The notes beneath the pieces are model-generated. The model made no database searches and was not told where the DNA came from. It worked only from the letters and a program-made list of their open reading frames with translations. Position numbers and translations under genes: made by a program. Shown here piece after piece: positions 25,077 through 44,592 of a DNA stretch of 64,000 bases (position 1 is its first letter; every line of letters begins with the position of its first letter). This DNA comes from Chitinophagaceae bacterium (GTDB lineage: Bacteria; Bacteroidota; Bacteroidia; Chitinophagales; Chitinophagaceae): positions 186,001-250,000 of the forward strand of contig JAHBTJ010000001.1 in the NCBI GenBank assembly GCA_019638595.1, read 5' to 3'.

Positions 25077-26057
25077 ATGCCTGCTCGTAAAACAGAAAGC
25101 CGGCTTCCGGACGGATTCACAGCCAGTGACCTGGGGGAAAGCGCCCAGGCACAGGAAAACAATGCGGCGATCGTTTCTTTTATAAGATCGCCATTGGTAA
25201 TGGCTCGTCCCAATACGTATGTAATCTTTATTACCGATGCTGCAATTGCCGCCGCCACCGCTAACTACGAATGGGTATTCAGCGAAAACGGAGCTGTAAC
25301 AGCTACTCAAACCACGCCCGCAGGCGAGTTTACTTATACGCCGCAAAGCTTAGGCGCATTATCCATATCAATAAAAATAAAAGGAGCCGACAATGCCGAT
25401 AAAGCTACTATTACGCTTAACCAGGAAGTAGTTACCTTAAATGAAGAACTGGAAGCTTTAATTACGAGTGCTGTTAATAACCCCGGACCCGGTGTTGGAA
25501 ATGTTGAGGTAGCACGGGAGTTGATCAACGATCATAATCCATATTACCAGGCCGTAACATTGCAGGATCCTGAACCGGGCGATGGGTTTAAACGATTTGT
25601 TTTCTCAATGGCTTCAGAAGGGATATTACAAAGAAATGCCGAACAACGCAAGGTATTAACAGATGCACTGGCGGCAGCGCTTAATAATGGATCCGGCGAT
25701 TTTGCCACACTGGCTGTAGAAGGTGCAGGCATATGCAGGATAAGGCTTGCATTAGCGGCTATGGTAGTAGCTGGATTGCCCTGGACTGAGTTGCCGGATG
25801 CAGCAAGTGCCCGTGCATCGGCCGACCAGCAATTACGCGAGCAACTGGGTACTCTCGACGAAAATAAAAAAATTGATCTTTTTAATCTCGTGCGTTTTCC
25901 TAAAAGCAATATCACCTTATGTGGTAAAATACTGGAAGCATTAAGAAACAGGTATTTTGCCGGCGCCAATTTTAATGATGTGCTTACGGGTATGAACGGA
26001 ACAAGGGCGCACTGGATCAACCGGCATTATAAAGAAGGACCACTGGTAACAGCATAG
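25077..26057 (+). CDS. Cluster gene 1: Ig-like plus helical hypothetical protein
   Basis: This 326-aa protein has no signal peptide or membrane segment. Residues about 35-120 form an Ig/PKD-like beta domain (YEWVFSENGAV, FTYTPQSLGALSISIKIKG). Residues 125-326 are mainly helical, with GFKRFVFSMASEGILQRNAE, ICRIRLALAAMVVAGLPW and a C-terminal THWINRHYKEGP-like motif (read as RAHWINRHYKEGP). I do not recognise the family. It is the first gene of an operon-like run and lies 21 bp before gene 2. It may be a structural or adaptor component. Confidence 0.75.
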   Translation: MPARKTESRLPDGFTASDLGESAQAQENNAAIVSFIRSPLVMARPNTYVIFITDAAIAAATANYEWVFSENGAVTATQTTPAGEFTYTPQSLGALSISIKIKGADNADKATITLNQEVVTLNEELEALITSAVNNPGPGVGNVEVARELINDHNPYYQAVTLQDPEPGDGFKRFVFSMASEGILQRNAEQRKVLTDALAAALNNGSGDFATLAVEGAGICRIRLALAAMVVAGLPWTELPDAASARASADQQLREQLGTLDENKKIDLFNLVRFPKSNITLCGKILEALRNRYFAGANFNDVLTGMNGTRAHWINRHYKEGPLVTA

Positions 26058-26078
26058 TTACATTTAGTATTTATTGTT

Positions 26079-27374
26079 ATGTGCAAAACAACAAACAGGG
26101 CAACACATACCGCGTCACCGGCTGAAAAGGACCTGATCGAAATTGAAAAAGTTGTGCCGGCACAGCCGCCCCCGGGTTTGTTTCCCCCGGCTCATACCAT
26201 CTTATCTGCCAATGCAGATACGGCTTCCCCTTTTTTTACGGCTTTTGCCGCTGTTAAAGCAAAGAGTAAATACAGATCGCTGCCATTTGCGGTGATTGAT
26301 TATACCAATGCGGCATCGCCCCTGTATCTTGGAAACAATGATAAAAAGCCTTTTTTTGTAGCCAGCCTCGCTAAAATTGGGGCATTGTTTGCCGCTTTAT
26401 GGTTACGGAAAACAGCGCGTGCAAACATAAGAAAGTCTGCAGCCTCAACCTTTGCGGAGGCGCTGGAAGAATTGAAAGCGAAATGGACGCTTGAAGAAAA
26501 ACCTTTTCCCGATCGGTTCAAAAAAAATGTTATTCCTTCTGCCACCTGGCCCCCTAAGCTGGAAGATATCTTTACCGGCAACAAATTACCAAACGGCGAC
26601 TGGACACTTGATTTTACAGCAGACCTCCCTTTTAAAGGACCCGATCGTGCGGGTTCGCTTGAGGTATTAAAACCTATTGATAAAATGCCGGAGGGCTCAA
26701 CCGCCACCAAAAAAGCGAAAAGAACCAGGATCAATGGACTGGGTTTCAGGGACCGGCTGGAATTGATGATCGGCTGGTCGAGCAATCTTGCAGCGGCATC
26801 CTGCATCAATGCGCTGGGGTACCAGTTTATAAATGGGTGCCTGGAATCGGCGGGCTTTTACAACAGGAACAAAACCACCGGCGGCGGATTATGGCTAAGC
26901 CGTAATTATGACGGACTGTTTGACGGATCGGACTTCCAGGGGAAAACGCAGCAGGGCGCCACAGCTCAGGCTGCTGCCAACTGCATGTGGCTGGCGGCTG
27001 CCAAACAATTGATAGATGTAGAAGCCTCGGAAGACTGGCTGCTGATGATGGATAAAGAAACTTATACCGACAAGCCCGCGCCGGTACCGGTTTTTACAAG
27101 AAGCTTTATTGGAGATGAACTGGTTAAGCAAGGACTTTTACTAAAAGAGCTTAACAGTAAGATCGGCATTTATTATAAGACTACTAAAGACTCCGGCGGG
27201 AATGAAATATACTCCGATTTTCATTATTCAGATGTGGCGAATGTGGAAGAGAGCGATCCTGCAAAGGGCTTGTTGAAGTATGTGATCGCTATTTGTTTTT
27301 CAGGATCGACAGATAATGATGCCAAAGTGTTGTTTGATCTTTCGTTTGAGTTGGAAAAAGCGGTGAAGGCATAG
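26079..27374 (+). CDS. Cluster gene 2: beta-lactamase-fold serine hydrolase
   Basis: This 431-aa protein carries the signature of the serine beta-lactamase/penicillin-binding fold. SLAK (S96-x-x-K99) is the nucleophile motif and SSN (S234, N236) in MIGWSSNLAA is the SxN motif. KIG (361-363) occupies the place of KTG. About 110 residues rich in Lys and Pro are inserted between the first two motifs. It has no signal peptide, unlike true beta-lactamases, so it is expected in the cytosol or inside a particle. The N terminus MCKTTNR plus a Pro-rich linker resembles that of cluster gene 3. The substrate is unknown. Confidence 0.75.
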   Translation: MCKTTNRATHTASPAEKDLIEIEKVVPAQPPPGLFPPAHTILSANADTASPFFTAFAAVKAKSKYRSLPFAVIDYTNAASPLYLGNNDKKPFFVASLAKIGALFAALWLRKTARANIRKSAASTFAEALEELKAKWTLEEKPFPDRFKKNVIPSATWPPKLEDIFTGNKLPNGDWTLDFTADLPFKGPDRAGSLEVLKPIDKMPEGSTATKKAKRTRINGLGFRDRLELMIGWSSNLAAASCINALGYQFINGCLESAGFYNRNKTTGGGLWLSRNYDGLFDGSDFQGKTQQGATAQAAANCMWLAAAKQLIDVEASEDWLLMMDKETYTDKPAPVPVFTRSFIGDELVKQGLLLKELNSKIGIYYKTTKDSGGNEIYSDFHYSDVANVEESDPAKGLLKYVIAICFSGSTDNDAKVLFDLSFELEKAVKA

Positions 27375-27454
27375 AAGAAGTAGTAAGTGGTAAGGTATAA
27401 GAGATAAGGGATTTTAACCCAATTAGCTTACTCAGCTCATTTAACTTGTTAGCG

Positions 27455-29428
27455 ATGTGTAAAACCAGTAAAAGTTCACAATCGGCGGCGGCCAATCAAT
27501 TGCCGGATATACAACCCAAAACGGGTGGCGGCGGGCCATCAACGCCTGCTGATCCACCTGTGGTTACTATTCGCCGGGAGCATGTGCCTGAAATTGTTTT
27601 TATTGCCGAAGCATCTGCAAACGACAATGGTTTTATTGCAAGCGCTAATAGCTTTCATGACTTTTTTGGCTTCAGGAGTGCAAAGAGAAAAACTTTTACA
27701 TCGTTGCAGCATCTTGTTCAATTACTGGCTGCTACCGACACAGCGTTGAACAGGATACGGATTGTGGCTCATGCTGATAATACGGGTATTTTTTCACCCT
27801 TTGTACAAGGCGCTCCAAGAGTTACGATTGAAAAAGGTGATTTACGTGTTTTTCTAGAAGGCGATGGAAAATGGTTACATAGCAAGCTGAATATTTTCCA
27901 TTTTCTTGGTAGCGGCGCCCCGGCCCGGGAAATAGCAGAGCGAATATTGTCTCATATATTACAAAGCAGCAGCGCCCCGGCGGTTACGCCATTCGGATAT
28001 ACAGAATCTTCACATCCCGATACGGCACTTATTACATTTGTGCTATGCGCCGCTACGCCACTTGTAGTGAATGGGAATTTTCTTAAAAAGGACACGAATA
28101 CTAATTTGTCTGCTGCTCAAAAAACGGCTTTTATTACTGCTTTCGACAAAATATTGGATGTTGCCGGTAGTAATCTCAGGGCGAACAGTTCGTTCAGCAG
28201 TGTAACTCCGGCACATCTCACAAATCTTAAAACCGTTATCAGGAATTTTTCATTGGCAGATTATAATTTTACACCTGGTATTACTCCTATATCCGATGAC
28301 TTTTTAAATACACTCTCCATCCATGTTGCAGCATTAACGAATAAATTCAGGGAAAATCTTGCAAAAATGCAGCAGCGTTTTTCCGGTACTTCCTGGGTTG
28401 ACATCAGGGGATGCCGTGCGGGAACCGACCGTGATTACCTCACTGCTGTAAGCGAGTTTTTTGGAAAACCAGGTAGCCGTCCTCATGTAAGCGGGCCAAC
28501 CTGGTACCAGATGTTCCCGGGTATTGGTTCTACCGACTCACCCGGAGCAGAAAGTATTAATGAAGTGTTAACTACCGGCAATGGGGGCATAAGTGCGGAC
28601 GATTACAAAAGCAATCTTGATAAGTGGCTGACTGCGGTGCGTTATAACGATGCTTACTTCAACGCCTGGCACACTGCGTTTAACAGTAAGGCAGCGTTTT
28701 TTTGCCAATTGAACTGGCGGGCGAATATTCCAACAACATTCATGATACGCGAAGGGAAACAGCACGGAATAGCTTCGCTTAATTTTATTGATACCATCAA
28801 GCGCATAAAAAGTATTATGGGTGTATCTGCATCAGCTCATCCCACCCAGGCAATACTCAATACGCTGCAAACCTTTGTATCTACAAAATTACCGGGTTAT
28901 ATGCAGCAGCTTACACAGGCTGTTCCGGCAACAGGTCCTTTTACAACTATATTCAATGCTTTAAAAACTATTTCAGATGAACTGTCGGCATCTGTTGTAC
29001 CTGCTACAGCGCCAGCGGGCTTAACCTCCGACCAGGTGAAACAGTATCAAACCCAACTCATTGATTTTATCAGTACCAATAAACTGCAACGTATTCATGA
29101 ACTGTTGCAGAATGCTCAAACTCATGTAAATGGACCCAATGGAAAATATCACCTTTTTTTAAGATTTGGATTACCAGGTATTGTATTTATTGAAAATGAT
29201 TTCCTGATAAGCAAAATTTTTGTTCTTACCAGTGAGAAGAATAATGCTTTAAGGATTTTTTTAAGAGAGATGTGGGAAGAAGCGCTTCCAACACCTAACA
29301 GTGTGGGCACTGCTTCGTTGGATACTCCTGCACACAGGGCTATTTCAACATTAACACAGGATCATTCGGACACTACCGTACACCTGGCTCCAATGCCAAA
29401 TTATTTTGACCATATTGAAACCATTTAA
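27455..29428 (+). CDS. Cluster gene 3: hypothetical protein with a possible His/Cys caspase-like dyad
   Basis: The 657-aa protein starts MCKTSKSSQ at the ATG 27455 (an in-frame TTG lies at 27446), followed by a Gly/Pro linker. Residues about 45-125 form an alpha/beta unit ending in IRIVAHADNTG (H106). Further on comes VDIRGCRAG (C320), followed by a helix and HVSGPTWYQMFPG. The order strand-His, then strand-Cys, resembles caspase-like or DUF4347-type folds, but the distance between them is large and I cannot confirm catalysis. A helical C-terminal half follows. No signal peptide is present. Gene 4 begins 2 bp after the stop. Confidence 0.65.
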   Translation: MCKTSKSSQSAAANQLPDIQPKTGGGGPSTPADPPVVTIRREHVPEIVFIAEASANDNGFIASANSFHDFFGFRSAKRKTFTSLQHLVQLLAATDTALNRIRIVAHADNTGIFSPFVQGAPRVTIEKGDLRVFLEGDGKWLHSKLNIFHFLGSGAPAREIAERILSHILQSSSAPAVTPFGYTESSHPDTALITFVLCAATPLVVNGNFLKKDTNTNLSAAQKTAFITAFDKILDVAGSNLRANSSFSSVTPAHLTNLKTVIRNFSLADYNFTPGITPISDDFLNTLSIHVAALTNKFRENLAKMQQRFSGTSWVDIRGCRAGTDRDYLTAVSEFFGKPGSRPHVSGPTWYQMFPGIGSTDSPGAESINEVLTTGNGGISADDYKSNLDKWLTAVRYNDAYFNAWHTAFNSKAAFFCQLNWRANIPTTFMIREGKQHGIASLNFIDTIKRIKSIMGVSASAHPTQAILNTLQTFVSTKLPGYMQQLTQAVPATGPFTTIFNALKTISDELSASVVPATAPAGLTSDQVKQYQTQLIDFISTNKLQRIHELLQNAQTHVNGPNGKYHLFLRFGLPGIVFIENDFLISKIFVLTSEKNNALRIFLREMWEEALPTPNSVGTASLDTPAHRAISTLTQDHSDTTVHLAPMPNYFDHIETI

Positions 29429-29430
29429 CT

Positions 29431-32400
29431 ATGCCACAGGATGCATTGCAATCAATATTAACAGAAGCAGGGCTGGCACTGGCGCCGGTAAGGGCGGTAA
29501 ATACTCCGCAAAAAGCGCAGGACTTTTTTAAGAAGCTGGGCTATGATATTCCTGTGAACGCGTTTGGTTCGGCATTATCGGCACTGGCAACCCAGGGTAC
29601 GGAGCTGGTGAATGCGGTACGCACACTGGTGGATGCAGAAGGCGATATGGAAGTGATAGCCGCGCTGGCGGCAATAGGTACCCGCTTTGGAGCATTGGTT
29701 GCTGCCATTGCCGATCTGCACAATCAAATTAAATCGGCGGGCGGTGCAGGCATTCCGGCTATTGATCAGTTTCCGAGGAGGCTGACCGATTTTTTAATAC
29801 TGGAATATCTGGAAACCCAGAAGGCGCAAATGCATGATGGCTTTTACCTGTTTGGGTTGGTGGAAGTAAATGAGAATGCCCCTGCAGGCCAGCCAAAACG
29901 TGTCATCAACTGGGAGCGCTTCGGGCTGATCTTTACCAATCCCCGCCAGTTGTTCAACGATGTATACCAGTGGGAAACTGATTTTGATACGGCAAAGTTC
30001 TTATCAAGATTAGAACGCCTCATGAAATCCAGCTCCTTGCCGGGAGGCTTATATCCGCAGGCTGCTACCACCAAAACCATATTAGGCAATACATCCAACG
30101 ATCATAAAGAATTAAGGTTCCCGGTTTTCCAGAAGGGACTGACGCCCGAAACCTATGCGCAGTTCGGCATTACTTTTTCGCCTGCCGACGCGCAGGGCAG
30201 TAAGAAAAAAGGAGTAGCGTTGTTACCGTATATTATGGGCGCCGCAGAATTCCAGTTCAATGTATGCGACCGGGGTGAGCTGGTATTTCAATCCTCTGCC
30301 GACATCAAAGGAGTGGGCTTTGTAATACGACCGCCCTTTAACGCGGAAGGTATTCTCAATTTCACTTCTAACTATAATGCTTCTGTTGCTATCAGGGAAA
30401 AGGCGGACAAAACAGATGAGATTATTTTAGTGGGATCCCGCAACGGCACCCGTTTTGCATTAAAAGGATTGGGTGTGAAATGGTTTGTAGGCAATTCCGG
30501 GGGGAAGGTGGATCTCGGGATGGAAGGAGAGATACAGGTGATACGCCTGGTGATCAGCGGTGGCGACGGCGATGGTTTTTTGCAGAAAATGCTTTCGGGT
30601 GTTAATATACAGATAGATTCCAATGTTGCTTTTAAATTCAGCTTGCTGCATGGCTTCAGCATCAGCGGCGGTGCGCAGTTCGCTATTGATCTTCCCGTGC
30701 ATATTGAATTAGGCCCGGTAGCCATTAATGGTATGCGTATAGCGCTTACTCCCGCTACCGAAAAATTCAACCTGGATGCAGGGGCTACTCTCAAGTTATC
30801 ATTAGGACCTATTGTAGCGGTAGTTGAAAATATCGGGTTGCGTACCGAGTTACAATTTAAACAGGGCAATATAGGTCCTGCAAACCTGGATTTTGCCTTT
30901 AAACCTCCTACCGGTATTGGCTTGAGTATTGACGCGGGTGTAGTGAAAGGAGGGGGTTATATTTTGTTCGACGATGTGAACAAACAATACGCCGGCGCGC
31001 TGGAACTTTCTATTATGGACAGCTTCCAGGTGGCGGCCATTTGTGTTATTACAACGCGTATGCCCGATGGCAGTGATGGCTTTTCACTGCTCATCATCAT
31101 CAGCGTTACATTCAGTCCGGGCATATCGTTAAGCATGGGCTTTTTCCTGAGCGGATTAGGCGGTATGCTGGGCATTAACCGTACTATTAATGTGGATGCG
31201 ATGCGGGAAGGCGTAAAGAACAACGCCATTGATCATATCCTGTTTCCCGAAGATGTGGTGGCCAATATCACAACTATTATTCAACAGATCAGCACCATAT
31301 TCCCGCCCAAGAAAGACCAGTTCATGATCGGGCTGATGGCAAGGATTACCTGGGGCGTACCGGCATTGATCACCATTGATTTTGGTTTGATCATTGAATT
31401 TACAAGTCCAACACGTATCGCTATATTAGGTGTGGTAAAAATTGCATTGCCTACCGAAGAAGCCGCCATCCTGCAACTGCAGGTGAACTTTGTGGGCATC
31501 ATTGATTTTGAAAAAGGCATGTTATCATTCGATGCCAGCCTGTACAATTCGCGCATACTCACGTTCACGCTCGAAGGCGATATGGCATTACGCCTGGGTT
31601 GGGGACAAACAAAAGGCTTCCTGCTGTCGGTTGGTGGTTTTCACCCGCAGTTCAAACCACCGTCTGAACTGAAAGTACCTTCCATGAAGCGGCTTACACT
31701 TACTATACTGGCAGACAACCCGCGACTGATACTTACCTGTTATTTCGCTGTAACCTCCAATACGGTGCAGTTCGGGGCTAAAATAGATTTCCGGTTTGCG
31801 GTGTCTGAATTTAAAGTAGTAGGCTATTTGTATTTTGATGCATTGTTCCAGTTCTCGCCCTTCCGCTTTATTGTAGGAGTAGGCGCCGGGCTGGAAGTGA
31901 AGATAGGCAATTGCACCCTCTTTGGTATTACACTTGAATTTGAGCTCGCTGGCCCCACTCCCTGGAATGCCAAAGGCACTGCTTCGTTCAGCATTTTGTT
32001 CTTTACCATAAAAGTACATTTTGATGAAGAATGGGGTGATAAGAGCAGCATTGAATACCCGAAGATCGCGGTACTGCCCAAGGCCATGGAAGCCCTGCAA
32101 CTGGATGCCAACTGGACCACGGAGCTGCCGGCCAACCGCTCTACGCTGGTAGGCGTTCGCGATATTCCTGCTGAGCCGGGCAGTATCGTATTACAACCCT
32201 TCGGTTCCTTCAGGGTAAGTCAAACAGTAGTACCGGTAGGGCAGGTGCTTGATAAATTCGGCGAAAACATCCCGGCGGATATCAAAAAGATAGACATTGC
32301 CAGGGTTAAGATCGGTAACAGCATCGTATCTAATGAATATCCTGTAGAAGCGTTTGCACCGGCTATGTTCAAAAAGCTGGATAATAAGCAAAAGCTGAGC

Positions 32401-32835
32401 GCGCCGTCTTACGAAAATATGAAGAGCGGGGTGAAGGTAACGGAAACAGATGAGATCACTGTGTTGTCAAGAGCGAACCGGAAAGTGGAATATGAAGTGC
32501 ATGTTTCGGATTTCGATCCAACACCGGAAACTCCGTTGTTTACATTCGATAAAAACATATTTAAGCTGATGACCAAAGGCGGGGCAATAGGTAACTCTTC
32601 ACTGTCGCGCGAGTATGCGAATAAAAAAGTGATGCAGAAAGGTGCTGCGGTGAATGTAAATGAAGAAGCGTTTGTAATAATGAACAAGGCGAGTATGGAT
32701 GCGGTAGCCCACAATGGATTTTCCGGCGGCAGCTATTCAGATGCTACAGACGCATTGAACGATTATGTAAGAGCTAATCCGGAAATGAAAGGAAAAATAA
32801 AAGTGGTGCCGGCATATCACATGGAAATGGAATAA
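29431..32835 (+). CDS. Cluster gene 4: giant all-beta protein, DUF6603-like
   Basis: The 1134-aa protein begins with about 110 Ala-rich helical residues. Then come some 650 residues of alternating hydrophobic/polar beta-strands, such as ITIDFGLIIEFTSP and FKVVGYLYFDALFQFSP, resembling what I remember as DUF6603. The last 250 residues are a different domain (VSQTVVPVGQVLDKFGENIP, FAPAMFKKLDNKQKLSAPSY). There is no signal peptide or terminal aromatic barrel motif, so it is unlikely to be a conventional outer-membrane barrel. It might form an elongated beta-groove or shell; that is inference. Confidence 0.72.
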   Translation: MPQDALQSILTEAGLALAPVRAVNTPQKAQDFFKKLGYDIPVNAFGSALSALATQGTELVNAVRTLVDAEGDMEVIAALAAIGTRFGALVAAIADLHNQIKSAGGAGIPAIDQFPRRLTDFLILEYLETQKAQMHDGFYLFGLVEVNENAPAGQPKRVINWERFGLIFTNPRQLFNDVYQWETDFDTAKFLSRLERLMKSSSLPGGLYPQAATTKTILGNTSNDHKELRFPVFQKGLTPETYAQFGITFSPADAQGSKKKGVALLPYIMGAAEFQFNVCDRGELVFQSSADIKGVGFVIRPPFNAEGILNFTSNYNASVAIREKADKTDEIILVGSRNGTRFALKGLGVKWFVGNSGGKVDLGMEGEIQVIRLVISGGDGDGFLQKMLSGVNIQIDSNVAFKFSLLHGFSISGGAQFAIDLPVHIELGPVAINGMRIALTPATEKFNLDAGATLKLSLGPIVAVVENIGLRTELQFKQGNIGPANLDFAFKPPTGIGLSIDAGVVKGGGYILFDDVNKQYAGALELSIMDSFQVAAICVITTRMPDGSDGFSLLIIISVTFSPGISLSMGFFLSGLGGMLGINRTINVDAMREGVKNNAIDHILFPEDVVANITTIIQQISTIFPPKKDQFMIGLMARITWGVPALITIDFGLIIEFTSPTRIAILGVVKIALPTEEAAILQLQVNFVGIIDFEKGMLSFDASLYNSRILTFTLEGDMALRLGWGQTKGFLLSVGGFHPQFKPPSELKVPSMKRLTLTILADNPRLILTCYFAVTSNTVQFGAKIDFRFAVSEFKVVGYLYFDALFQFSPFRFIVGVGAGLEVKIGNCTLFGITLEFELAGPTPWNAKGTASFSILFFTIKVHFDEEWGDKSSIEYPKIAVLPKAMEALQLDANWTTELPANRSTLVGVRDIPAEPGSIVLQPFGSFRVSQTVVPVGQVLDKFGENIPADIKKIDIARVKIGNSIVSNEYPVEAFAPAMFKKLDNKQKLSAPSYENMKSGVKVTETDEITVLSRANRKVEYEVHVSDFDPTPETPLFTFDKNIFKLMTKGGAIGNSSLSREYANKKVMQKGAAVNVNEEAFVIMNKASMDAVAHNGFSGGSYSDATDALNDYVRANPEMKGKIKVVPAYHMEME

Positions 32836-32886
32836 CATAGCCGGCGGGAGAAACACTACATCACAAATTGTATTAAATGAATTAAT

Positions 32887-36162: not shown

Positions 36163-36174
36163 ATTGTAACGGAT

Positions 36175-39100
36175 ATGCCTTCTACATTCAACACGCTGCT
36201 GGAAGATAAAAGGATCAGTGAGATAAAAAATATGACTGCCGCCAAAAACGACGGCATACCTTTTTTGTTATTGCCGGTACGTACGGAAACCCGGTTTATG
36301 GAGCTGGATGAGCCGTCGCAAACAACTTCTACCGATAATATTGATACCATACTGGATGTATTGTTGATGACGCAGGTTGATTTGCTGGATATACAGAACC
36401 TGCAGCAGGCTGGCGGGGCTATTAGCCGGTCATTGAAAAATATACAAAGCGCCGCTAAAATGGTGAGCGAGATCACCATACTAACGGCAAAGAATAAACG
36501 TATTTTGAAGGAAATGGGCGCCAGTGTTACGGATACCGTGAATTTTGCGTCACAAAAATTTCCGTCCGCGGGTTTTACGGTTCTAAAAAATACCGTAAGC
36601 AGCCTGGTAGCTGCTATGGAAGCTTTGGTGGTAGATCCGCATGGGGTGCTGCTGCCGGCCCGCAACCTGCTGGATCGGTTACATAAAGTAGCCGGTACGA
36701 TAGACGTGCTTTCGAACCGCGCTAAAACTCCTTATCAAAATATCAAGAATAAGAAAGACCTGTTCGGGTATGTAGAAACCGGGCTGGACCAGGCGCTTAC
36801 ATTTTATAAAAACCAGGCGGAAGCTGTTGCCGGTATGCAATACATCGCTAAAAACCAGTTCACGCAGCTACAGCAGTTACATACACAGGTCAGCAAGGGA
36901 ATAGCCGCCGTGCTGCCCAACCTGGCGGTGATACATACCGATGCAACCTGGGCCGCATTTATTGCAGAGAAAGCCACACCGTTAGTAGCGGATATAGAAA
37001 GCGGCATCAAAGAATTTGGAATGGTATCGTTGCCGGCAATAAAGGCGTTACCTGAACCTCCGCAATATGATTACAACGACCTGTTGCTGCAGGCCATGAA
37101 AACCTATCTTCATCTTAAAAAAATTTCAATAGAGCCCGCATCGCCTTACGCGGCTGTGTCAAAATTTAAAAACAGGATAAAATCCGGTATAACGTATATA
37201 GACAGATCGGTAACCGCGGTTCCTCTGCAGGGGGCAAGCCAGGCGCAACGCCTGAATAAAGTATATAATTTATTAACGCCTGAGCTGAGTAAAGCAGGAC
37301 AGAAAATTGAGAGTATCAGCGCTAAAAATAAAAGCCAGAAATATGGTATAGATCTTTTGTCGGAATATATTAGCAGTGATGCAGCCGCGGTAATTGGTAA
37401 AGCTAAAGCGGTTATAGAGCCTAAGTTAAAAAAGGTACATGAGCTGTGGGTGCGTATTTACCCCGATGATATTTTTGTACATACCCATGAGGAGGAGCTT
37501 ACCGCTAAAGAATACGAATCGGGCAAACGTTTCTGGAGCGCCTGGTGGATGGCGGGTAATGATATAACATTAGAAAAAGCGGCCTGGAAAAGATTGTGTA
37601 CCACTCATGGTACGAAAAGGGCTTCGTGGATCGCGTCGCTGATTGATCCGCGTACATCGGGTATAGCCCGTAACGCGCAGCAATTACAGCAAAAGCCATA
37701 TGCTTTTTTTGCGGATATACAGGAAGCTGCCAAAAGTATTCCACCCGCGTCGCAGTCGCTTAATCCCACCCTCGATCCCGACCGCTTCTGGACATCCGTG
37801 ATACTGAATGCTATAACGGTGCTGGATACACGAATTAAAAAGCTCGCTTCCCTTTTACAGCCTGTTGCCGTTGCACCCGATGTTATGATGCAGGAGCTGG
37901 AAGTACAGGTAGTGCGCGCCCAGGGCGACATACAATCTATCCTCTCCAAAACAACATCACTTACCCCGGCACAGCAAACGCAATTCGCTGATAAGCTGGC
38001 TGCTTTTAAGCTGGTTGCCGATAATTTCAGCAAGCTGGTTGAAACGGTCAATGCCATTGAGCGTAAGACGATTGACCAATTGGTAAATGAATTGCCGCAG
38101 GAGGCATTTGATTATGTGGATCCTGCGATAAAAGAAGGCGTATGGACAAAAGCTCCGCATACTTACGTGTTGCCTGAACGGTTCGCGGTTATTACCATCA
38201 ACAATAATCGTTTCCAGCATATTGTAGTAGGGAATAAAGTGCCGGATAATTTGCAGCTAGGCCCCGATCCCGCTTTTTTCTCCAATAAAGACGAAAACGG
38301 GGAGACTGTTTATAAAATAGACGAAAACGGCGACCTGGCGATTGAAGACGGAATAAAGTGGATGACAGAATACCGGAGGGCGGTTGAAACAGGTATGGGC
38401 GTAACCATTCCGCTTACACAGGAACAATACGATGCCGGTTTTGACAAGCTGCTGGTGATTGGTGTAAAACAGGGAGATGCCGTTAACAATAAAAGCCTGC
38501 TTGAAAAATTGTTGCTTAACCATGTGTATGCAGCCGATGGTATGGGTATATTAAAAGTTGGAACACCTACCAATAATACAGAAAACGCAACGGCAGGCTA
38601 TAGTGCAAGAGATAACGATGAAGATGAACGTTTTGATATTGAAATAGCCAATCGTTTGTTTGATGCTTTCGCGACGGACACGATGCTTCAAGCCGATGGC
38701 AAACGCCTGGCCGATGGACTGGGCCTGTCGGCTGATGTGTTGCAGAAAGTAGACAACAGGCACGACAGGCAGGTAAGTAACGCTATTACCATGAACAGGG
38801 CTTTGTGGAGCGCTACCCTGGGGCATACAATGGAAGAGATGTGGGATCATATTTTTACGTACGATAATATCAGGCGTACAGAAAAATATTTTATCAATCA
38901 TTGTCCTGCCCGGGGAATATTGCCTTCCATGCGCGTGGGTGCGCAGCCTTATGGCATATTGCCCACTACCGCTTATTCACGGTTTAAAATATCAGCGCAG
39001 TACGATGCCTGTCATTTGCCGCAAGTAACGAACGCAAATGCCGAGGTGGCAAGGCAATTGCGCTTTGATCTGCGCCTGCATGAAATATTAAAAATGTTCA

Positions 39101-42100
39101 ACGGGGTGTGGACCGAGCTCCGGAGAAATAAAGTAGCGCATTATGCCCAGCTCGAAAACGGCAATCCGCAGCAAAAGTTCATTGAAATGCTGGGACTGAA
39201 TGCCGGTTCTGTTGAGCATTATTACAGGTATGGCATTAATATTACGCGCAAGGGAGTAAAAACGGCAGACGGCAATAAAGAATATGATATTAGAGCTACT
39301 CACGGTGCAGAATACATGCGTGCCTGGTTCAAGGAAATGATGATCAACGGAGTATTTGCTCCCTCTTTCAGCTTTCCCGATGAAACAATACCCGACCTTT
39401 TTAACGTGCTTTTTAAACTAACAGATCGTAAATATTCCCGCATAAGAGACCAGTTTGACCAGAGCAGGATATTCCGCAACCGCTTTATCGCGGGGCCGCA
39501 GGAGCTCCGGCAGCTTACCGGATATTTAATTGATAGCAAGGAACTATCGCCCGTTGAGCCGGTTGAGAGAGGAGAAGGGGGATCGTATATTGATTGGTTG
39601 TTGAACAGCTTTCTGGATGCGATTTTGGCGGGCAACAATCCCGCCACTTTCCCCAGCCGAAGCCTGTTGTTTTTACTGATGCGTCAATCGCTGATGCAGG
39701 TTTACCAGGAGGCGGCGTTGGATATTCTTCAACTGGAAGGGTTGATAACCGAAGACAGGCGCCGTATAGTAGGCGATGAAAATACCTATAGCGAATGGGG
39801 CGGCATGGGATCGTTGCGAAAATACAACACCAAATGGCATTTGCTGCTGAAGGATATGGATGAGCTGAAAGGATTTGTGTTTGATAAATTTGATAACAGC
39901 AATGCCTTTTACAATTATGTGGTAAACACCGGCAATAACAGTGGAGCCGGCAGGAGTTCAATGGCTACTTATATATATAAACCCGAAGCGAATCCCTTGC
40001 TGAACGGGTATGTGCGTGCAGCACAGCACAAAAAGATATTGCAAAAAACAGAAGAAGTGCGCCGGGCGTATGGCATATTGAACAACCTGCCTACCGGAGA
40101 GCTGTCGCACCTGCTCGCGGAGCATATTGATTCGTGCAGCTACCGCCTCGATGCCTGGATGACCGGGTTGGTGAACAGGCGGCTGAGTGAACAGCGGGCT
40201 ATTAATAAGGAGGGTATTTACCTGGGCGCTTACGGCTGGCTTGAGAACTTAAGAAGGGATACCAATAAGAAAGAAGCGAAAGCGGCTGATATTCCCGCGG
40301 GGCTGAGTCCTGAAGCTGTTAAGGTATATGATGATCCGGATAATGATGGATTTATTCACGCGCCTTCTTTAAACCACGCCATTACTGCTGCGGTGCTGAG
40401 AAGCGCGTACAAGGCCAATTATTCAGAAGAAGATATCAATAACAGGCTGGCGGTAAACATTTCATCATCGCGTGTAAGAATGGCGCTGAACCTGATAGAT
40501 GGGGTACAGAATGGTTTACAGATAGGAGCCATATTGGGCTTCCAGTTTGAGAAAGGAATACATGAAAGATATAAGCTGGCAGAGCTGGATAAATTTATTT
40601 TACCCTTCCGAAATGCTTTTCCGCTGGTGGTTGCGGTTAAAGACAACGCCCAGGCAGGCAAGCCGCCATCTTATAACAGTAATGTGGTAGACGGCATGGC
40701 ATTGCTTAATAAAATTTATGATGCGGTAAAATGGCTGGACTTTCCCTCCGATAAAACCATGTTCGAAGTAATTACCGATCCGGCCAACAATACGGTGTTG
40801 AAATGGCTGCATGATCTTGTAACAGCTAACGGTGGGGGTAACACGGAATTTGTACAGATAGCAAAAGAAATTGACCGCATGGCAGACGCGCTGGACGCGT
40901 TGGGTGATGTGGCTGTTTCTGAAAGTGTATACCAGGTGGTGCAGGGAAATTATGTAAGAGCTTCGGCAATGATGAACAGTCTTGCGCAGGGAAAAAACAT
41001 CCCCGAACCTCAAATGATTGATACACCACGTTCGGGTACTGTAGTAACGCAGCGGGTAGTATTGAATTTTCATCCGCAGGAAACATTTGCACAACCTCCG
41101 GGCTGGCCGGCAAATGCAACACCCAGGGCAAATGCGGAACCAACGCTCAATACCTGGCTGGCATCGGTTATAGGTAACCCGGCAAATATCAGGTGTGTTG
41201 CAGCGTACAAAACAACGGAGCCGGATGCGGTTACCCGGTCCGGTGAGTTAGCGCTGAGCGAACTGGATCTGCAGCCGCTTGATTATCTTTTTGTGGCAGC
41301 CAATGAGGCGGACTTTAAGCAATACATCGCTTACAAGCTGCGCGAAAAGCTTTCATTACCCAACGATGCCACTGTTACCATTGATCTTATATCCAGGCTT
41401 GACACGTGGGGTTCTTCTGTTCATAGCTTTTATGAGCAGGACCACCTGCTTACCCAGTTGAGAAATATATTGCTGCAGGCGCGTGCGGCAGGTGCGGAAC
41501 AATTGGTGCAAACCAGCGTGGCTCCCGATCCCGGCAATCCCGGCAACCACGATGTTGGGCAATATAAAATAAGAACGGAGGAAGCCGTAAACCGGCTTAC
41601 AAATATTATAAACACATTAACGGCAGACGCGGCTGTAAAAGATTTGCTGGAAGCGAAAAAGATACTGGAAGCCCCGGATGATACTTTGAGCGATGCGCAA
41701 CTGCAGCTCATGAAGGACTTCCTGGTTTTGGTAAATGCCTACGGTGTTCCTAACGCGGTTCCGGGTATGTTACATGAACAGGCGGCCGACAAAAAAGAGG
41801 CATCCCAAAAATACCTGCAACAAACCATGGTCGCCTACAGGCAAACCAGGGAACGATTAAAGCAGGCAACGGATACTTTGAATAAGATAAATGCCAAAAC
41901 TCCTGACAAGCAAAAGCTGTCGTTTTACAATGATGTGTTGAAAATAGTTTTTGGAAAAGCGTTTGTATCCCTGCCTTTGTACAAAGCGCCGAACCAGGAA
42001 GCTATTTCAAAGCAGTTGGCCGCGCCGGATGAAGAAAATATTATCCGGGGCGATCGTACTATGGTAATGGCAGAATGGTTGCAAAGTGTAGCGAAGGTTC

Positions 42101-42702
42101 GTCCTAAGATCGGCTCGCTCGAAATGTTAGACATCCTGTTGTCGGCTGCTGATAAGAGCATAGACCTGTTACCTGTTCAATTGAACCATCAGCCCGGAGA
42201 CTATTGGCTGGGTGTGGAATTCCCGGCGGAATATGTGCCTGCAGAAGATAAGCTTTCGCTGCTGATGGTAAATCCGCAACAATGGATGGATCCCGGTATA
42301 CAGAACCAGGCAGGCATCATACTGGATGAATGGGTAGAGGTGATTCCGAATAAAATGGAAACTACCGGTATAGCGCTCAATTACAATCAGCCCGATGCCA
42401 TGCCGCCTCAATCGTTGCTGCTGGCGGTTACGCCGGTAACTACCGGCAAATGGGTGTGGGAAGATTTGGTGGTTACATTACTGGATACGTTGGAAATGGC
42501 GAAAAACAGGGCGGTAGAGCCGGATCATGTGGATCAGAGCGCGCTGTCGCATATCCTGCCCGGTATATTATCGGAAGTTGCTCCGCCGCAAATGGGAAAC
42601 ATTCCGGATGCCAATCCGTTGGGAGTGCAGGTAGTAATGGATTTCGCATTTAACAGGCAGCCTAAAAAAATACCAATACAACCAATACAACCAATACCAT
42701 AA
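36175..42702 (+). CDS. Cluster gene 6: giant hypothetical protein (2175 aa)
   Basis: This is the largest gene of the window. The N-terminal third has long helices and ends in LWVRIYPDDIFVHTHEEELT followed by a Trp-rich KRFWSAWWMAGND. The middle contains LPERFAVITINNNRFQHIVV and MRVGAQPYGILPTTAYSRF. The C terminus contains YWLGVEFP, DEWVEVIPNKMETTG and PPQSLLLAVTPVTTGKWVWE. These motifs look like those of a widespread but unnamed family in other phyla (from memory). There is no signal peptide. The protein ends in an in-frame 9-bp tandem repeat encoding IPIQPIQPIP. Confidence 0.8.
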   Translation: MPSTFNTLLEDKRISEIKNMTAAKNDGIPFLLLPVRTETRFMELDEPSQTTSTDNIDTILDVLLMTQVDLLDIQNLQQAGGAISRSLKNIQSAAKMVSEITILTAKNKRILKEMGASVTDTVNFASQKFPSAGFTVLKNTVSSLVAAMEALVVDPHGVLLPARNLLDRLHKVAGTIDVLSNRAKTPYQNIKNKKDLFGYVETGLDQALTFYKNQAEAVAGMQYIAKNQFTQLQQLHTQVSKGIAAVLPNLAVIHTDATWAAFIAEKATPLVADIESGIKEFGMVSLPAIKALPEPPQYDYNDLLLQAMKTYLHLKKISIEPASPYAAVSKFKNRIKSGITYIDRSVTAVPLQGASQAQRLNKVYNLLTPELSKAGQKIESISAKNKSQKYGIDLLSEYISSDAAAVIGKAKAVIEPKLKKVHELWVRIYPDDIFVHTHEEELTAKEYESGKRFWSAWWMAGNDITLEKAAWKRLCTTHGTKRASWIASLIDPRTSGIARNAQQLQQKPYAFFADIQEAAKSIPPASQSLNPTLDPDRFWTSVILNAITVLDTRIKKLASLLQPVAVAPDVMMQELEVQVVRAQGDIQSILSKTTSLTPAQQTQFADKLAAFKLVADNFSKLVETVNAIERKTIDQLVNELPQEAFDYVDPAIKEGVWTKAPHTYVLPERFAVITINNNRFQHIVVGNKVPDNLQLGPDPAFFSNKDENGETVYKIDENGDLAIEDGIKWMTEYRRAVETGMGVTIPLTQEQYDAGFDKLLVIGVKQGDAVNNKSLLEKLLLNHVYAADGMGILKVGTPTNNTENATAGYSARDNDEDERFDIEIANRLFDAFATDTMLQADGKRLADGLGLSADVLQKVDNRHDRQVSNAITMNRALWSATLGHTMEEMWDHIFTYDNIRRTEKYFINHCPARGILPSMRVGAQPYGILPTTAYSRFKISAQYDACHLPQVTNANAEVARQLRFDLRLHEILKMFNGVWTELRRNKVAHYAQLENGNPQQKFIEMLGLNAGSVEHYYRYGINITRKGVKTADGNKEYDIRATHGAEYMRAWFKEMMINGVFAPSFSFPDETIPDLFNVLFKLTDRKYSRIRDQFDQSRIFRNRFIAGPQELRQLTGYLIDSKELSPVEPVERGEGGSYIDWLLNSFLDAILAGNNPATFPSRSLLFLLMRQSLMQVYQEAALDILQLEGLITEDRRRIVGDENTYSEWGGMGSLRKYNTKWHLLLKDMDELKGFVFDKFDNSNAFYNYVVNTGNNSGAGRSSMATYIYKPEANPLLNGYVRAAQHKKILQKTEEVRRAYGILNNLPTGELSHLLAEHIDSCSYRLDAWMTGLVNRRLSEQRAINKEGIYLGAYGWLENLRRDTNKKEAKAADIPAGLSPEAVKVYDDPDNDGFIHAPSLNHAITAAVLRSAYKANYSEEDINNRLAVNISSSRVRMALNLIDGVQNGLQIGAILGFQFEKGIHERYKLAELDKFILPFRNAFPLVVAVKDNAQAGKPPSYNSNVVDGMALLNKIYDAVKWLDFPSDKTMFEVITDPANNTVLKWLHDLVTANGGGNTEFVQIAKEIDRMADALDALGDVAVSESVYQVVQGNYVRASAMMNSLAQGKNIPEPQMIDTPRSGTVVTQRVVLNFHPQETFAQPPGWPANATPRANAEPTLNTWLASVIGNPANIRCVAAYKTTEPDAVTRSGELALSELDLQPLDYLFVAANEADFKQYIAYKLREKLSLPNDATVTIDLISRLDTWGSSVHSFYEQDHLLTQLRNILLQARAAGAEQLVQTSVAPDPGNPGNHDVGQYKIRTEEAVNRLTNIINTLTADAAVKDLLEAKKILEAPDDTLSDAQLQLMKDFLVLVNAYGVPNAVPGMLHEQAADKKEASQKYLQQTMVAYRQTRERLKQATDTLNKINAKTPDKQKLSFYNDVLKIVFGKAFVSLPLYKAPNQEAISKQLAAPDEENIIRGDRTMVMAEWLQSVAKVRPKIGSLEMLDILLSAADKSIDLLPVQLNHQPGDYWLGVEFPAEYVPAEDKLSLLMVNPQQWMDPGIQNQAGIILDEWVEVIPNKMETTGIALNYNQPDAMPPQSLLLAVTPVTTGKWVWEDLVVTLLDTLEMAKNRAVEPDHVDQSALSHILPGILSEVAPPQMGNIPDANPLGVQVVMDFAFNRQPKKIPIQPIQPIP
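42673..42699 (+). repeat. Three-unit 9-bp tandem repeat at the 3' end of cluster gene 6
   Basis: CCAATACAA occurs twice and then CCAATACCA, encoding the repetitive tail of the 2175-aa protein. Because the unit is three codons, gain or loss of a unit would lengthen or shorten the tail without a frameshift. Confidence 0.7.
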
Positions 42703-42711
42703 TATTATAAT

Positions 42712-44592
42712 ATGCCAAGAATAGACAGTGTTTCATGCGAACCGTTCCGTGCCTGGAACAGGCTGGAGCCAAGAACCCGCAAGCAGGACTTTGATGATGT
42801 ACTGAAATGTTCCATTCACGATCCCCTGTGGATGCTTACCCGTCAATGGCAATTCGGCGAGTTCCAGGGAGAGGATACCGGCTCGGCGATTTTCGCGAAA
42901 ATAAAAATGCAAACCACGCAGATCACAAGGTATAAATCAGCGACAGAAGTTGGTGAAGTATACACGGATGTAATACCTGCGGAAACAAAGGTGGAAAGTG
43001 AATATCCGCAACTGGACTATCATTGTCGTGTACAGTCGGCCTCTTTTTTTATGAAGCTGCTAAAGAATAAATTAACCGGCGTAGCGGGTTTTAATTATGC
43101 CGGTTACCTGCAGAAGCTGAAAACGTTGTATGCGCTGGTATTACCGGAAAATGTGGATGAGAATGACAACCACATAAATACGGTGTTGAAGCTGCGCACG
43201 CTTGTCAATAATCCGCTGAGCAGTTTTTTGGCTGCCAACGGAGCACAGTGGTTTGATGGTGTTGCATTGTACGAAGCTGCCAAGGCAGGAATACCTGCTG
43301 TCGTAAATGCTATTGTGATAGTGAGCCCCGGCCATACGGAGGCGTTGACGCAATCGCTGGAAGCGTATATACCCTGGTTTGAAAAAGCGTATAAACCCAC
43401 GCATAATACAAATGGTAAGGGAGCCTGGCTGAATGAACAAATGGAGTACCAGTTCGCAGTATCGCTTCCGGAAAAGGCGAAGCCCAATACGGTGTTGAAG
43501 GCGGAAGAATATTATACGGGCGATATGGAATGGTATTCGTTTGATGTGTCGGCAGACGAGGAAACGATTGAGGGACTGACCGGTAATGCCACCGATGGCG
43601 AGCTGCCTAAAGTGGATGAGAAAATAGTAACGGTTATACCTACCCTGGCAAAATACGGTGGCATGCCGCATCCGCGATGGTGGCAGTTTGAAGATGGGAA
43701 TATAGACCTGGGCGATATAGATGCGGATACTACCGATATAGCGAAACTGATCGTATCGGAATACGCGCTTATTTATGGTAACGACTGGCTGGTAGTACCC
43801 TATTCGTTGCCGGTAGGAAGTCTTACACAAATACCCGCGATAGTAATAACAGATGTATTTGGGGAGCGTTCACTGGTAAAACCGGCCATACAGGGTAATA
43901 CTGATGACTGGACAGCCTGGGGATTGTTTAACCTGAGTGTGCGCACAGCGGATAATGTGAAAAATGCGCAGGCTGATACCCGTTTGTTCCTGCCACCCTG
44001 TGTTGCTAAAACACAGGAAAGTGAGCCGTTGGAGGAAATACATTTCATTCGCGATGAAATGGCGAATATGGTATGGGCTATTGAAACAAGACTGAATAGC
44101 TTGGCCGGTACTAATATGGAGGGGGATGCCGCCGCTAATTATCTTCGCAATGCCATTGAATTGATTGAACCGCCGGCAGGCGCCTTATTGCCGGTGGATG
44201 AAAAGGCGATGTTTAAATACATGATTGAAAATACCGTGCCCGAAAACTGGATACCATTTGTGCCTGTTCATATACCCGGGCAATACAGGGCTGTGAGGCT
44301 GCAACGCGCCAGCATGCCACGATGGTTTAAGCAGGAATACGCGCCTGTTCGCCCCGCTACCAGTTTATTACGTACAGGCATAACCGAAGCAGATGCTGTT
44401 ACCTCGGCTTTATTTGTAAATGAAGAAGAAGTGCCGAGGGCTGGCGCCAGGGTTACCAGCAGCTATCAGCGAACTCGTTGGTATAACGGGAAAACGGTCA
44501 ACTGGCTGGGTCGCCGCAAAAAATTAGGCAGGGGAGAAGGCTCCAGCGGATTACAGTTCGACGCGCTGGATCCGATAACAAAGGAGAAATGA
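42712..44592 (+). CDS. Cluster gene 7: large hypothetical protein (626 aa)
   Basis: This is the last gene of the operon-like run, 9 bp after gene 6. The N terminus carries CEPFRAWNRLEPRTRKQDF and WMLTRQWQFGEFQGEDTGSA, motifs I associate with an unnamed family found beside homologues of genes 5 and 6. The middle contains MPHPRWWQFEDGNIDLGDID. The C terminus has ALLPVDEKAMFKYMIENTVP and a Lys/Arg-rich end (WLGRRKKLGRGEG) that could bind nucleic acid or an acidic partner. There is no signal peptide or transmembrane segment. The function is unknown; constant adjacency to two giant proteins would suggest a common complex. Confidence 0.8.
   Translation: MPRIDSVSCEPFRAWNRLEPRTRKQDFDDVLKCSIHDPLWMLTRQWQFGEFQGEDTGSAIFAKIKMQTTQITRYKSATEVGEVYTDVIPAETKVESEYPQLDYHCRVQSASFFMKLLKNKLTGVAGFNYAGYLQKLKTLYALVLPENVDENDNHINTVLKLRTLVNNPLSSFLAANGAQWFDGVALYEAAKAGIPAVVNAIVIVSPGHTEALTQSLEAYIPWFEKAYKPTHNTNGKGAWLNEQMEYQFAVSLPEKAKPNTVLKAEEYYTGDMEWYSFDVSADEETIEGLTGNATDGELPKVDEKIVTVIPTLAKYGGMPHPRWWQFEDGNIDLGDIDADTTDIAKLIVSEYALIYGNDWLVVPYSLPVGSLTQIPAIVITDVFGERSLVKPAIQGNTDDWTAWGLFNLSVRTADNVKNAQADTRLFLPPCVAKTQESEPLEEIHFIRDEMANMVWAIETRLNSLAGTNMEGDAAANYLRNAIELIEPPAGALLPVDEKAMFKYMIENTVPENWIPFVPVHIPGQYRAVRLQRASMPRWFKQEYAPVRPATSLLRTGITEADAVTSALFVNEEEVPRAGARVTSSYQRTRWYNGKTVNWLGRRKKLGRGEGSSGLQFDALDPITKEK

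Follow-up and report, generated by a model that had tools for sequence, protein, structure and literature searches.

What do giant proteins of unfamiliar kind do when their genes stand side by side, and do they act inside or outside the cell? The window analysed here, the whole 64,000-nucleotide stretch of Chitinophagaceae DNA, raises this question with seven plus-strand open reading frames at 25077..44592, which encode proteins of 326, 431, 657, 1134, 1091, 2175 and 626 aa. From gene 1 to gene 7 the intergenic gaps are 21, 80, 2, 51, 12 and 9 bp; the preceding gene is 456 bp away and a convergent gene lies 264 bp downstream. A check of the open reading frames bore out the coordinates and lengths of this layout, described in the first-pass annotation as seven plus-strand genes with gaps of 2-80 bp. 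That annotation had also read the operon as possibly one conserved system; the conservation stood, and the division between genes 1-3 and genes 4-7 had been missed. Judged from sequence comparisons, the operon is made of two parts, a variable enzyme cassette (genes 1-3) and a conserved core (genes 4-7). Its features are as follows.

25077..26057, plus strand: gene 1, 326 aa, candidate accessory or adaptor protein of the enzyme cassette, from its matches to L039
26079..27374, plus strand: gene 2, 431 aa, slot enzyme, putatively serine beta-lactamase/DD-peptidase-like, from motifs and a weak PF13354 match
27455..29428, plus strand: gene 3, 657 aa, putative cysteine hydrolase of the slot, from His/Cys motifs
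29431..32835, plus strand: gene 4, 1134 aa, core protein, with DUF6603 at 30697-32385
32887..36162, plus strand: gene 5, 1091 aa, core protein; its N-terminal region has a relative in the second DUF6603 architecture
34564..34986, plus strand: variable gene-5 segment, roughly residues 560-700, from alignment and hydropathy of relatives
36175..42702, plus strand: gene 6, 2175 aa, core protein
42712..44592, plus strand: gene 7, 626 aa, core protein with a confident model and no PDB match
26079..26093 and, as a second copy, 27455-27469, plus strand: MCKT(T/S) N-terminal peptide of slot proteins, from DNA matches

Related loci were collected through gene 5 (scan of genome contigs, best 79 loci of 171 matches), so gene 5 is present at every locus. 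Co-occurrence of genes 4-7 across phyla had been set beforehand as a test, and the genes did co-occur: among the matches listed, the order 4-5-6-7 was complete in 69 of 83 loci and consistent up to the contig end in 13 others, and L072 was the sole locus without gene 4. Median gaps for 4-5, 5-6 and 6-7 were 3, 14.5 and 6 bp. The core was found in many bacterial phyla and on haloarchaeal plasmids, where the gene order is the same. Within the phylum, gene 7 was present in 6 of 296 genomes, each time with DUF6603 lying 10-12 kb upstream, on one contig and in the same orientation; within the family it was present in 9 of 147 genomes, and in neither of two genomes of the same genus. This patchy, widely dispersed distribution agrees with the earlier suggestion of a conserved system in distant phyla.

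A phage or prophage origin was rejected, as there was no clear PHROG match (one stretch of gene 1 at E 8e-4 and one of gene 2 at 0.03, both to families of unknown function). No relatives of gene 7 were found in viral contigs. The single match among phage records, MT835531 (an unverified faecal scaffold), contains a piece of gene 4, gene 6 and gene 7, together with a regulator that by eye is of actinobacterial type; rather than a phage copy of the core, it was taken for a mislabelled bacterial contig.

Gene 4 had been said to look like DUF6603, and it is a clear member of this family (PF20248; residues 423-985, E 9e-131, 437 bits against a curated Pfam cut-off of 27), which here has a fixed set of partners. 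The family name implies that the function is unknown; a literature search found no paper on DUF6603 and none on this system of genes 4-7. In the predicted structure a helical N-terminus is followed by a region, residues 226 to 868, with 39 strands. Foldseek favoured outer-membrane barrels (9 matches at E < 0.001), with query TM of 0.09-0.16 for the ten best. Given this weak likeness, and the lack of a hydrophobic N-terminus in the window protein, an outer-membrane beta-barrel was rejected. Profile matches to the PDB (best E 6e-4) were mostly to designed coiled coils on the helical N-terminus and were taken for chance. A second DUF6603 architecture was also found, combining DUF6603 with a gene-5-related protein and two unrelated giants; with families grouped by eye, genes 6 and 7 showed no relation to these giants.

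Genes 5-7 proved as unfamiliar as first thought: no named system was found for them in Pfam, NCBIfam, PHROGs or PADLOC, or in the PDB by profile. Known secretion or S-layer parts were likewise rejected, with none among the window proteins (Pfam, NCBIfam, PDB profile). The three motifs of the giants that had been called repeated, FLWRYTPASPN among them, each occur once per protein; they are repeated from one species to another and not along a single chain. The claim that no membrane helix is present holds for window gene 5. In window gene 4, however, crude hydropathy shows one transmembrane-like stretch at residue 75, in the helical part. After removal of 15 loci as duplicates or near duplicates, 64 non-redundant gene-5 proteins remained, that of the window among them; by the same measure 20 have such a stretch mid-protein, and 17 of these 20 carry two neighbouring ones. 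The variable segment of gene 5 is soluble in the window and holds long inserts in some plasmid copies. A gene-5 protein named VCBS repeat-containing has a 634-aa insert at model position 576, and the hairpin begins at this position too in the three mapped cases. Gene 6 is about 1450-2420 aa long in most relatives and 2322-3225 aa in haloarchaea, where it carries surface-domain inserts; in two haloarchaea the inserts, at position 1402, contain a BGTF surface domain. The gene 7 model (pLDDT 82, pTM 0.76) had no PDB fold match; its relatives have LTD tails in two haloarchaea and a Laminin_G_3-like tail (under the cut-off) in L112. Core proteins (genes 5, 6 and 7) accept foreign segments at fixed sites. 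The LTD, Laminin_G-like, BGTF and VCBS-named segments are of extracellular types. Because the core has membrane-like hairpins in some species and extracellular-type domains in some, the cytosol is doubtful as the place of action of what had been called a large cytosolic assembly.

In the cassette, gene 1 matched a slot protein of L039 (1034 aa) at residues 2-320, which make up its N-terminal third, and gene 3 matched the same protein at 356-439 and 497-997. Separate gene-1-like proteins were found in L037, L040 and L097, and gene 1 is a candidate accessory or adaptor of the enzyme cassette. The SxxK/SxN serine-hydrolase-like motifs reported for gene 2 are both present, as SLAK at residue 96 (26364-26375) and SSN at residue 234 (26778-26786); instead of the KTG expected of class A beta-lactamases and DD-peptidases there is KTT at 265 and 367. 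Its match to Beta-lactamase2 (PF13354) was weak (E 2.5e-4, 20.9 bits, just under the cut-off of 22), and the PDB gave no match. Gene 3 starts with ATG at 27455 and encodes HADNTG (27770-27787) and RGCRAG (28406-28423). Both residues of the possible His/Cys dyad proposed for it are kept in all four aligned gene-3-type proteins. A profile link (E 2.5e-6, over only 40 columns) connects these proteins with a 384-aa family in which His and Cys are present in all seven covering rows, the eighth being cut there. No Pfam match worth the name and no PDB profile match was found for gene 3, and its motifs suggest a putative His/Cys hydrolase, with a caspase-like cysteine peptidase as a candidate. The N-terminal sequence MCKT(T/S) is present in all five non-gene-1 slot proteins of the window and L037 and in no other open reading frame of the set. 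DNA encoding it had two matches in the window against 0.13 expected, a count reached by 1 of 100 shuffles; the peptide is a candidate loading or targeting tag.

The payload census covered the 73 loci where gene 4 had been called as an ORF, several of them near copies, among the matches listed: 55 were assigned to a class, 8 had no class and 10 had no slot ORF. PhoD-like (16) and His/Cys (14) enzymes were the most numerous, followed by trypsin-like (9), subtilisin (6) and M64 (5) types; 'papain-like?' occurred twice (by eye) and a tyrosinase, a galactose-oxidase-like enzyme and a lipase-like fusion once each. The catalytic motif GDSG was present in 9/9 trypsin-like enzymes and GTSxA in 5/6 subtilisins. 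HExxH was found in 3/5 M64 loci; in the other two the M64-type gene lacks it and is not nearest to gene 4. The slot protein of L057 lacks both His and Cys in the alignment and was therefore placed outside the His/Cys class. The slot-gene scan took in 90 of 119 genes (near copies, short genes and the window set aside), with figures from the 25 commonest of 64 families. A C-terminal domain is common to 9/9 trypsin-like enzymes and 3/6 subtilisins and stands alone (138-141 aa) in three loci. In Kineococcus a lipase-like domain (E 4e-5, just under the cut-off) lies in one frame with DUF6603. An EAD9 match below the cut-off (E 0.006) was seen in a single slot protein.

On the gene-5 tree, 50 rows bear an enzyme label, in 9 classes; these labels require 22 or more changes of class, where 8 would be the minimum. 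Without the doubtful labels (45 rows, 8 classes) the figure is 19. The tree has 75 rows, from loci whose gene-5 ORF reaches 850 aa, after removal of five neighbourhoods duplicating other loci. Between the window and its nearest relative, L037, the core is 86-94% identical, compared with 73% for gene 1, 47% for gene 2 and 33% for gene 3. Five other close pairs (L042/L047, L062/L068, L056/L080, L087/L088, L087/L093) have slot enzymes with 88-99.5% identity, nearly the same as for the core; in L041/L042 the value is 67% against 73-85% for the core. Fast exchange is therefore not general. The locus shares with polymorphic toxins a conserved carrier whose catalytic payload can be exchanged.

The giants stand side by side in distant bacteria and haloarchaea, usually beside an enzyme that differs by species, which suggests an undescribed machine with exchangeable enzymes. 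We tentatively favour, at a little under an even chance, the reading that genes 4-7 form one large complex, a recurring cassette in bacteria and haloarchaea, with genes 1-3 as a payload delivered outside the cell. We infer an enzyme-carrying particle or surface complex with polymorphic-toxin-like logic and parts of no known machine. The window payload would be a serine hydrolase (gene 2) and a putative His/Cys hydrolase (gene 3) with an adaptor (gene 1). Made without a signal peptide, the enzyme would dock on the beta-rich gene-4 protein through N- or C-terminal segments, as adjacency in the operon, the one direct fusion and the accessory domain common to two protease folds suggest. Genes 5 and 6 would form the body of the complex; the gene-5 loop, where a hairpin-like stretch or a long insert is seen at one site, may contact a membrane or surface, and gene 7 may be the outward-facing end, with tails (LTD, one Laminin_G-like) that could bind targets. 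The complex would get outside without Sec, by lysis or another route, and the enzyme would be deployed on other cells or surrounding macromolecules. Exchange of the enzyme may point to conflict, and the enzymes are perhaps weapons. A broader proposal, possible and rather doubtful, is an undescribed class of multi-subunit machines, shared by bacteria and archaea, that would bring a hot-swappable enzyme to surfaces or other cells; gene 4 would provide the docking site, the gene-5 loop anchoring or adhesion, and gene 7 target binding, and the second DUF6603 architecture would be a sister class within a superfamily of enzyme-delivery complexes.

Several known machines share traits with the locus. 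Extracellular contractile injection systems and tailocins also have many large leaderless proteins and variable cargo in one operon. The earlier statement that genes 1-7 contain no contractile sheath, tube or baseplate was upheld by Pfam, NCBIfam and PHROGs, which found no spike or AAA gene either; with no structural gene in genes 1-7 or among the four flank families listed in at least three loci, such a system was rejected. Tc (ABC) toxin complexes have giant leaderless subunits and an exchangeable enzymatic part; however, neither a Pfam match of genes 1-7 nor a PDB profile match of genes 4-7 to Tc families was found. Another comparison is with polymorphic toxin systems (PMC3482391). These combine a large conserved carrier with exchangeable catalytic payloads, spread widely across phyla and bear adhesion-type domains on the carrier. 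Their payload is a C-terminal tip, whereas here it is a separate upstream gene beside a four-protein carrier. No immunity gene or known secretion signal was recognised at these loci, the sole small recurrent neighbour being the 138-141-aa domain (3 loci). The classical form with a C-terminal tip, an adjacent immunity gene and a known trafficking signal was rejected. A further comparison is with NTP-dependent counter-invader conflict systems (PMC7159879, PMC8195603). These similarly place interchangeable protease or hydrolase effectors beside a conserved module, but no STAND/AAA NTPase was recognised in the conserved unit here.

The main rival, which we consider unlikely and still worth serious weight, is an intracellular conflict system (anti-phage or abortive-infection). 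The core would be a sensor or scaffold restraining a suicidal or phage-directed enzyme, which infection would activate, and the gene-5 hairpin an inner-membrane anchor in some species. Leaderless proteases and other hydrolases are typical effectors of intracellular conflict systems, and by crude hydropathy the slot enzymes are mostly without an evident signal peptide (the unclassified first-slot proteins of L084 and L112 have strongly hydrophobic N-termini). Directly upstream of the window operon are the candidate defence genes PDC-S10 and PDC-S26 (PADLOC), a weak mad8-like ATPase and a WYL regulator; these candidate genes fit an intracellular role, as does the patchy occurrence within the family and genus. 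Against the favoured reading, no outward route was seen: a hydrophobic N-terminus was found in 2/74 gene-4, 0/77 gene-5, 0/84 gene-6 and 0/71 gene-7 proteins (crude hydropathy), and no secretion, lysis or injection family was recognised among the four flank families listed in at least three loci (the same 15 loci removed). However, the conserved unit showed no recognisable NTPase, nuclease or TIR partner, and no PADLOC model of known anti-phage systems matched any of genes 1-7 at E 1 (0 families for each). The galactose-oxidase-like and tyrosinase payloads, which are of extracellular types, also speak against it, together with the extracellular-type core segments.

A cell-surface or extracellular digestive complex, in which one displayed hydrolase or oxidase would serve nutrition or remodel the matrix and conflict would play no part, appears improbable. 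Many hosts are free-living polymer degraders, the classified payloads act on macromolecules, lipids, phosphoesters or phenolics, and the core has surface-type inserts; yet signal peptides are absent from the core and from the majority of slot enzymes, the class changes on the gene-5 tree exceed the expectation for a fixed nutritional role, and no transporter family lies beside the locus in at least three loci. Very improbable is a lipid-handling or membrane-remodelling assembly, with DUF6603 as a long amphipathic beta trough holding lipid and slot enzymes tailoring lipids or partner proteins. The strands of the gene 4 model, its weak Foldseek matches to LptD, ushers and ApoB, the gene-5 hairpin-like stretch and the PhoD-like and lipase-like payloads would suit it, but payloads of protease type are no rarer, query TM is 0.05-0.16 among the 50 Foldseek matches listed, and DUF6603 has other partners in its second architecture. 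Hardly credible is a selfish cassette, cryptic or in decay, with giant genes that do nothing for the host: patchiness, plasmid carriage, split copies in Rhizobium and Halobellus and a Streptomyces plasmid with gene 7 and no other core gene within 14 kb are offset by full-length frames with many invariant residues in distant phyla, which imply long-kept selection.

Under the favoured reading, with enzymes going outward, the locus would be a new kind of protein-delivery machine, common to bacteria and archaea, whose payload slot is modular and whose graft sites for binding domains are fixed; a complex acting inside the cell would be a new large class of conflict system. Four giant families called hypothetical in databases now share a context. 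Among the flank families listed, the only recurrent partner was a P-loop gene beside 12 loci, in either orientation, presumably MnmH/SelU-like by its motifs. A second copy of this gene was found elsewhere in 5 of 15 genomes searched.

We read the operon at 25077..44592 (plus strand) as encoding an enzyme-carrying complex, because it joins a fixed core of giant proteins (genes 4-7) to an exchangeable, mostly leaderless enzyme, with docking signs and sites for membrane or adhesive grafts. All seven genes proposed by the first-pass annotation were found in the window, gene 3 starting at ATG 27455 (657 aa). Its suggestion that one product looks like DUF6603 was borne out by a Pfam match of gene 4, and gene 2 was beta-lactamase-like, below the Pfam threshold. 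Genes 1 and 3 had no match worth the name in Pfam, NCBIfam or PADLOC, and neither did genes 5, 6 and 7; the motifs quoted as repeats were each present just once per protein. In one relative (L039) genes 1 and 3 are joined in one protein. The predicted model of gene 4 (pLDDT 80.5, pTM 0.50) has a helical N-terminus followed by 39 strands in residues 226-868. Its best PDB hits were outer-membrane barrels (E down to 1e-4), but at a query TM of 0.09-0.16, and a barrel was therefore rejected. The gene 7 model (pLDDT 82, pTM 0.76) found no PDB entry with E < 0.001 (best E 0.24).

Genome contigs (genome_contigs) were scanned with the gene-5 alignment, and the best 79 loci of 171 relatives, the window and three further neighbourhoods gave 83 loci, near copies among them and all with gene 5 by construction. 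ORF calls placed 61 of these in the order 4-5-6-7; with a six-frame check of the remaining 22, the full order was found in 69/83, and the expected conservation of this neighbourhood across phyla was thereby upheld. Another 13 were consistent with the core order as far as the contig end, including two with broken frames (gene 4 in L077, a gene-4 piece in L091), and at L072 alone gene 4 was not found in 5.1 kb upstream. Isolates with the locus include Arthrobacter ruber, Kineococcus vitellinus and Herbidospora yilanensis (Actinomycetota), Microvirga massiliensis and Crenothrix polyspora (Pseudomonadota) and Nannocystis exedens (Myxococcota), alongside many Bacteroidota and bins from additional phyla, whose taxonomic assignments may be incorrect. 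Mis-binning is probable for L103, which bears a Williamsia label, and for a Patescibacteria bin (L074) and a Myxococcales bin (L085), which agree with each other in the length of the gene 6 ORF and in that of the gene 7 ORF. Gene 7 was detected in 14 of 72,556 plasmid records, including haloarchaea, Streptomyces and Rhizobium. The four-gene order is retained on plasmids of Salinigranum and Halalkalicoccus, and also on those of Halobellus and Rhizobium, where genes 5 and 6 are broken over several frames. One faecal scaffold labelled as phage (L134, MT835531) carries genes 6 and 7 and part of gene 4, but has the look of a bacterial contig.

Within the family, gene 7 was present in 9 of 147 genomes drawn, the window's own counted. 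Across the phylum, 296 genomes were searched for both: DUF6603 was present in 13 (12 above the cut-off) and gene 7 in six, and in all six DUF6603 lay 10-12 kb upstream on the same contig and strand. The other seven genomes had DUF6603 without gene 7, and six of them supplied seven stretches (L127-L133) of a second architecture. Here the DUF6603 protein is larger, and its partners, grouped by eye, are proteins of 498-956 aa (6/7 stretches), 1222-1407 aa (5/7) and 496-704 aa (3/7). A distant relationship links the 498-956-aa protein to the gene-5 N-terminus (columns 60-289; hhalign probability 95.5, E 1.4e-8); hhalign found no relation of the remaining partners to genes 6 and 7. By eye, an upstream gene in L129 resembles a metallo-beta-lactamase-fold hydrolase.

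The slot upstream of gene 4 is variable: 119 of its genes fell into 50 clusters. Pfam gave PhoD-like, Nal1/trypsin-like, M64, subtilase, tyrosinase and galactose/glyoxal-oxidase-like classes. Kineococcus carries a lipase-like domain (E 4e-5, slightly below the cut-off) and DUF6603 in a single 2886-aa frame, and the record of Streptomyces longwoodensis names the gene that precedes DUF6603 'peptidoglycan-binding domain-containing'. H-(G/A) and (R/K)GC-x-x-G motifs are common to gene 3 and a distinct family of 384 aa, and we read both as putative His/Cys hydrolases. ORF calls gave a gene 4 in 73 loci: 55 of these were assigned a class, eight had a slot gene without class and ten had no slot gene. 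The M64-type gene of L061 and L100 is third or second upstream of gene 4 and lacks HExxH; the nearest slot proteins there (L100:4376-6445, L061:4265-6478) are related, 689-737 aa long and match no recognised family. They have an unusual common motif, HAP(I/V)CG(Y/F)CC(F/L)H(L/M)HWRW. Two further related proteins of 640-682 aa (L078:4453-6501, L048:4493-6415), with a conserved Cys region and EHSF/GHG motifs, look papain-like by eye. The unclassed slot protein of L073 had a weak T6SS effector match at E 3.6e-8, scoring 32 bits where the cut-off is 150. Several slot enzyme families are usually exported; in a crude hydropathy scan of 62 first-slot proteins, no signal peptide was evident in most. 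Five exceeded 2.0: the unclassed L084 and L112, with strongly hydrophobic N-termini, and three PhoD-like proteins, in which the stretch seems by eye part of the domain.

Enzyme class changed at least 22 times on the gene-5 tree (FastTree, some branches long; 50 labelled rows, 9 classes), and at least 19 times once doubtful labels were dropped (45 rows, 8 classes). Class differs between sisters, for example between the subtilisin of L059 and the His/Cys enzyme of L053, and between L066, with a cut member of the 384-aa family, and the trypsin-like L063. Identity was compared in 12 pairs. Between the window and its nearest relative, L037, it was 94, 92, 86 and 92% for genes 4-7 as against 33% for gene 3, 47% for gene 2 and 73% for gene 1, and L037 has an additional 259-aa gene. 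Counting against exchange, the slot enzyme is kept at 88-99.5% in L042/L047, L062/L068, L056/L080, L087/L088 and L087/L093, and in L041/L042 it stands at 67% beside 73-85% for the core.

The enzymes carry possible signs of docking. A C-terminal domain of ~110 aa is common to 9/9 trypsin-like and 3/6 subtilisin slot enzymes, and is a free-standing protein of 138-141 aa in three loci. Five proteins, those of genes 2 and 3 and three from L037, start with MCKT(T/S), though their bodies are unlike; the DNA pattern for this start occurs twice in the window (0.13 expected). The core itself accepts grafts. Gene 5 has a variable segment beginning after model position 576. Of 64 non-redundant proteins, 20 show a transmembrane-like stretch there, 17 of them with two such stretches side by side, and three cases were mapped to the model. 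Gene 5 of S. longwoodensis, recorded as VCBS repeat-containing, has a 634-aa insert with two D-x-(D/N)-x-DG motifs and sequence that looks propeller-like by eye; inserts of 86-123 aa occur in two haloarchaea and in a second Streptomyces. Gene-6 inserts of 331-1072 aa follow position 1402 in three haloarchaea, with a BGTF surface domain (NF045517) inside in both tested. Gene 7 ends in LTD domains in two haloarchaea, and in L112 has a Laminin_G_3-like domain (E 1.4e-5, slightly below the cut-off). Domains of these kinds (LTD, Laminin_G_3-like, BGTF, VCBS) are extracellular or adhesive types.

From these sequence features, the enzyme-carrying complex probably acts outside the producing cell and probably serves conflict; we infer the complex itself, its location, release and target. 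In logic the operon is like polymorphic toxins. We could not recognise a machine that its parts would fit, and no paper on DUF6603 or the operon system was found in the literature searched, with most subscription papers and preprints outside its coverage. The main alternative is a possible defence role inside the cell. Directly upstream lies what looks like a candidate defence island:

21029-24620: four-gene block of DnaB-like ATPase, phosphoesterase, PDDEXK nuclease and WYL regulator

The phosphoesterase matched PADLOC candidate model PDC-S10 (E 5e-81) and the nuclease PDC-S26 (E 7e-45). Downstream of the operon, genes resemble sugar catabolism.

The window spans positions 186001-250000 of contig 1 in a genome that comprises 7.06 Mb in 52 contigs. 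Gene 7 was absent from both same-genus genomes. One (G028) has ~4.6 kb between a ychF/Gate pair and TIM-barrel/oxidoreductase/fucosidase genes; in the other, the fucosidase gene and ychF/Gate are on separate contigs. Because the ychF/Gate block runs in the opposite orientation to that in the window, this does not qualify as a clean empty site. A P-loop gene, which we take to be MnmH/SelU-like and often without the rhodanese domain, adjoins the operon in 12 loci:

L038-L044, L048, L051, L057, L071, L075: MnmH/SelU-like gene just after gene 7, either orientation

A second copy elsewhere was found in 5 of 15 genomes searched.
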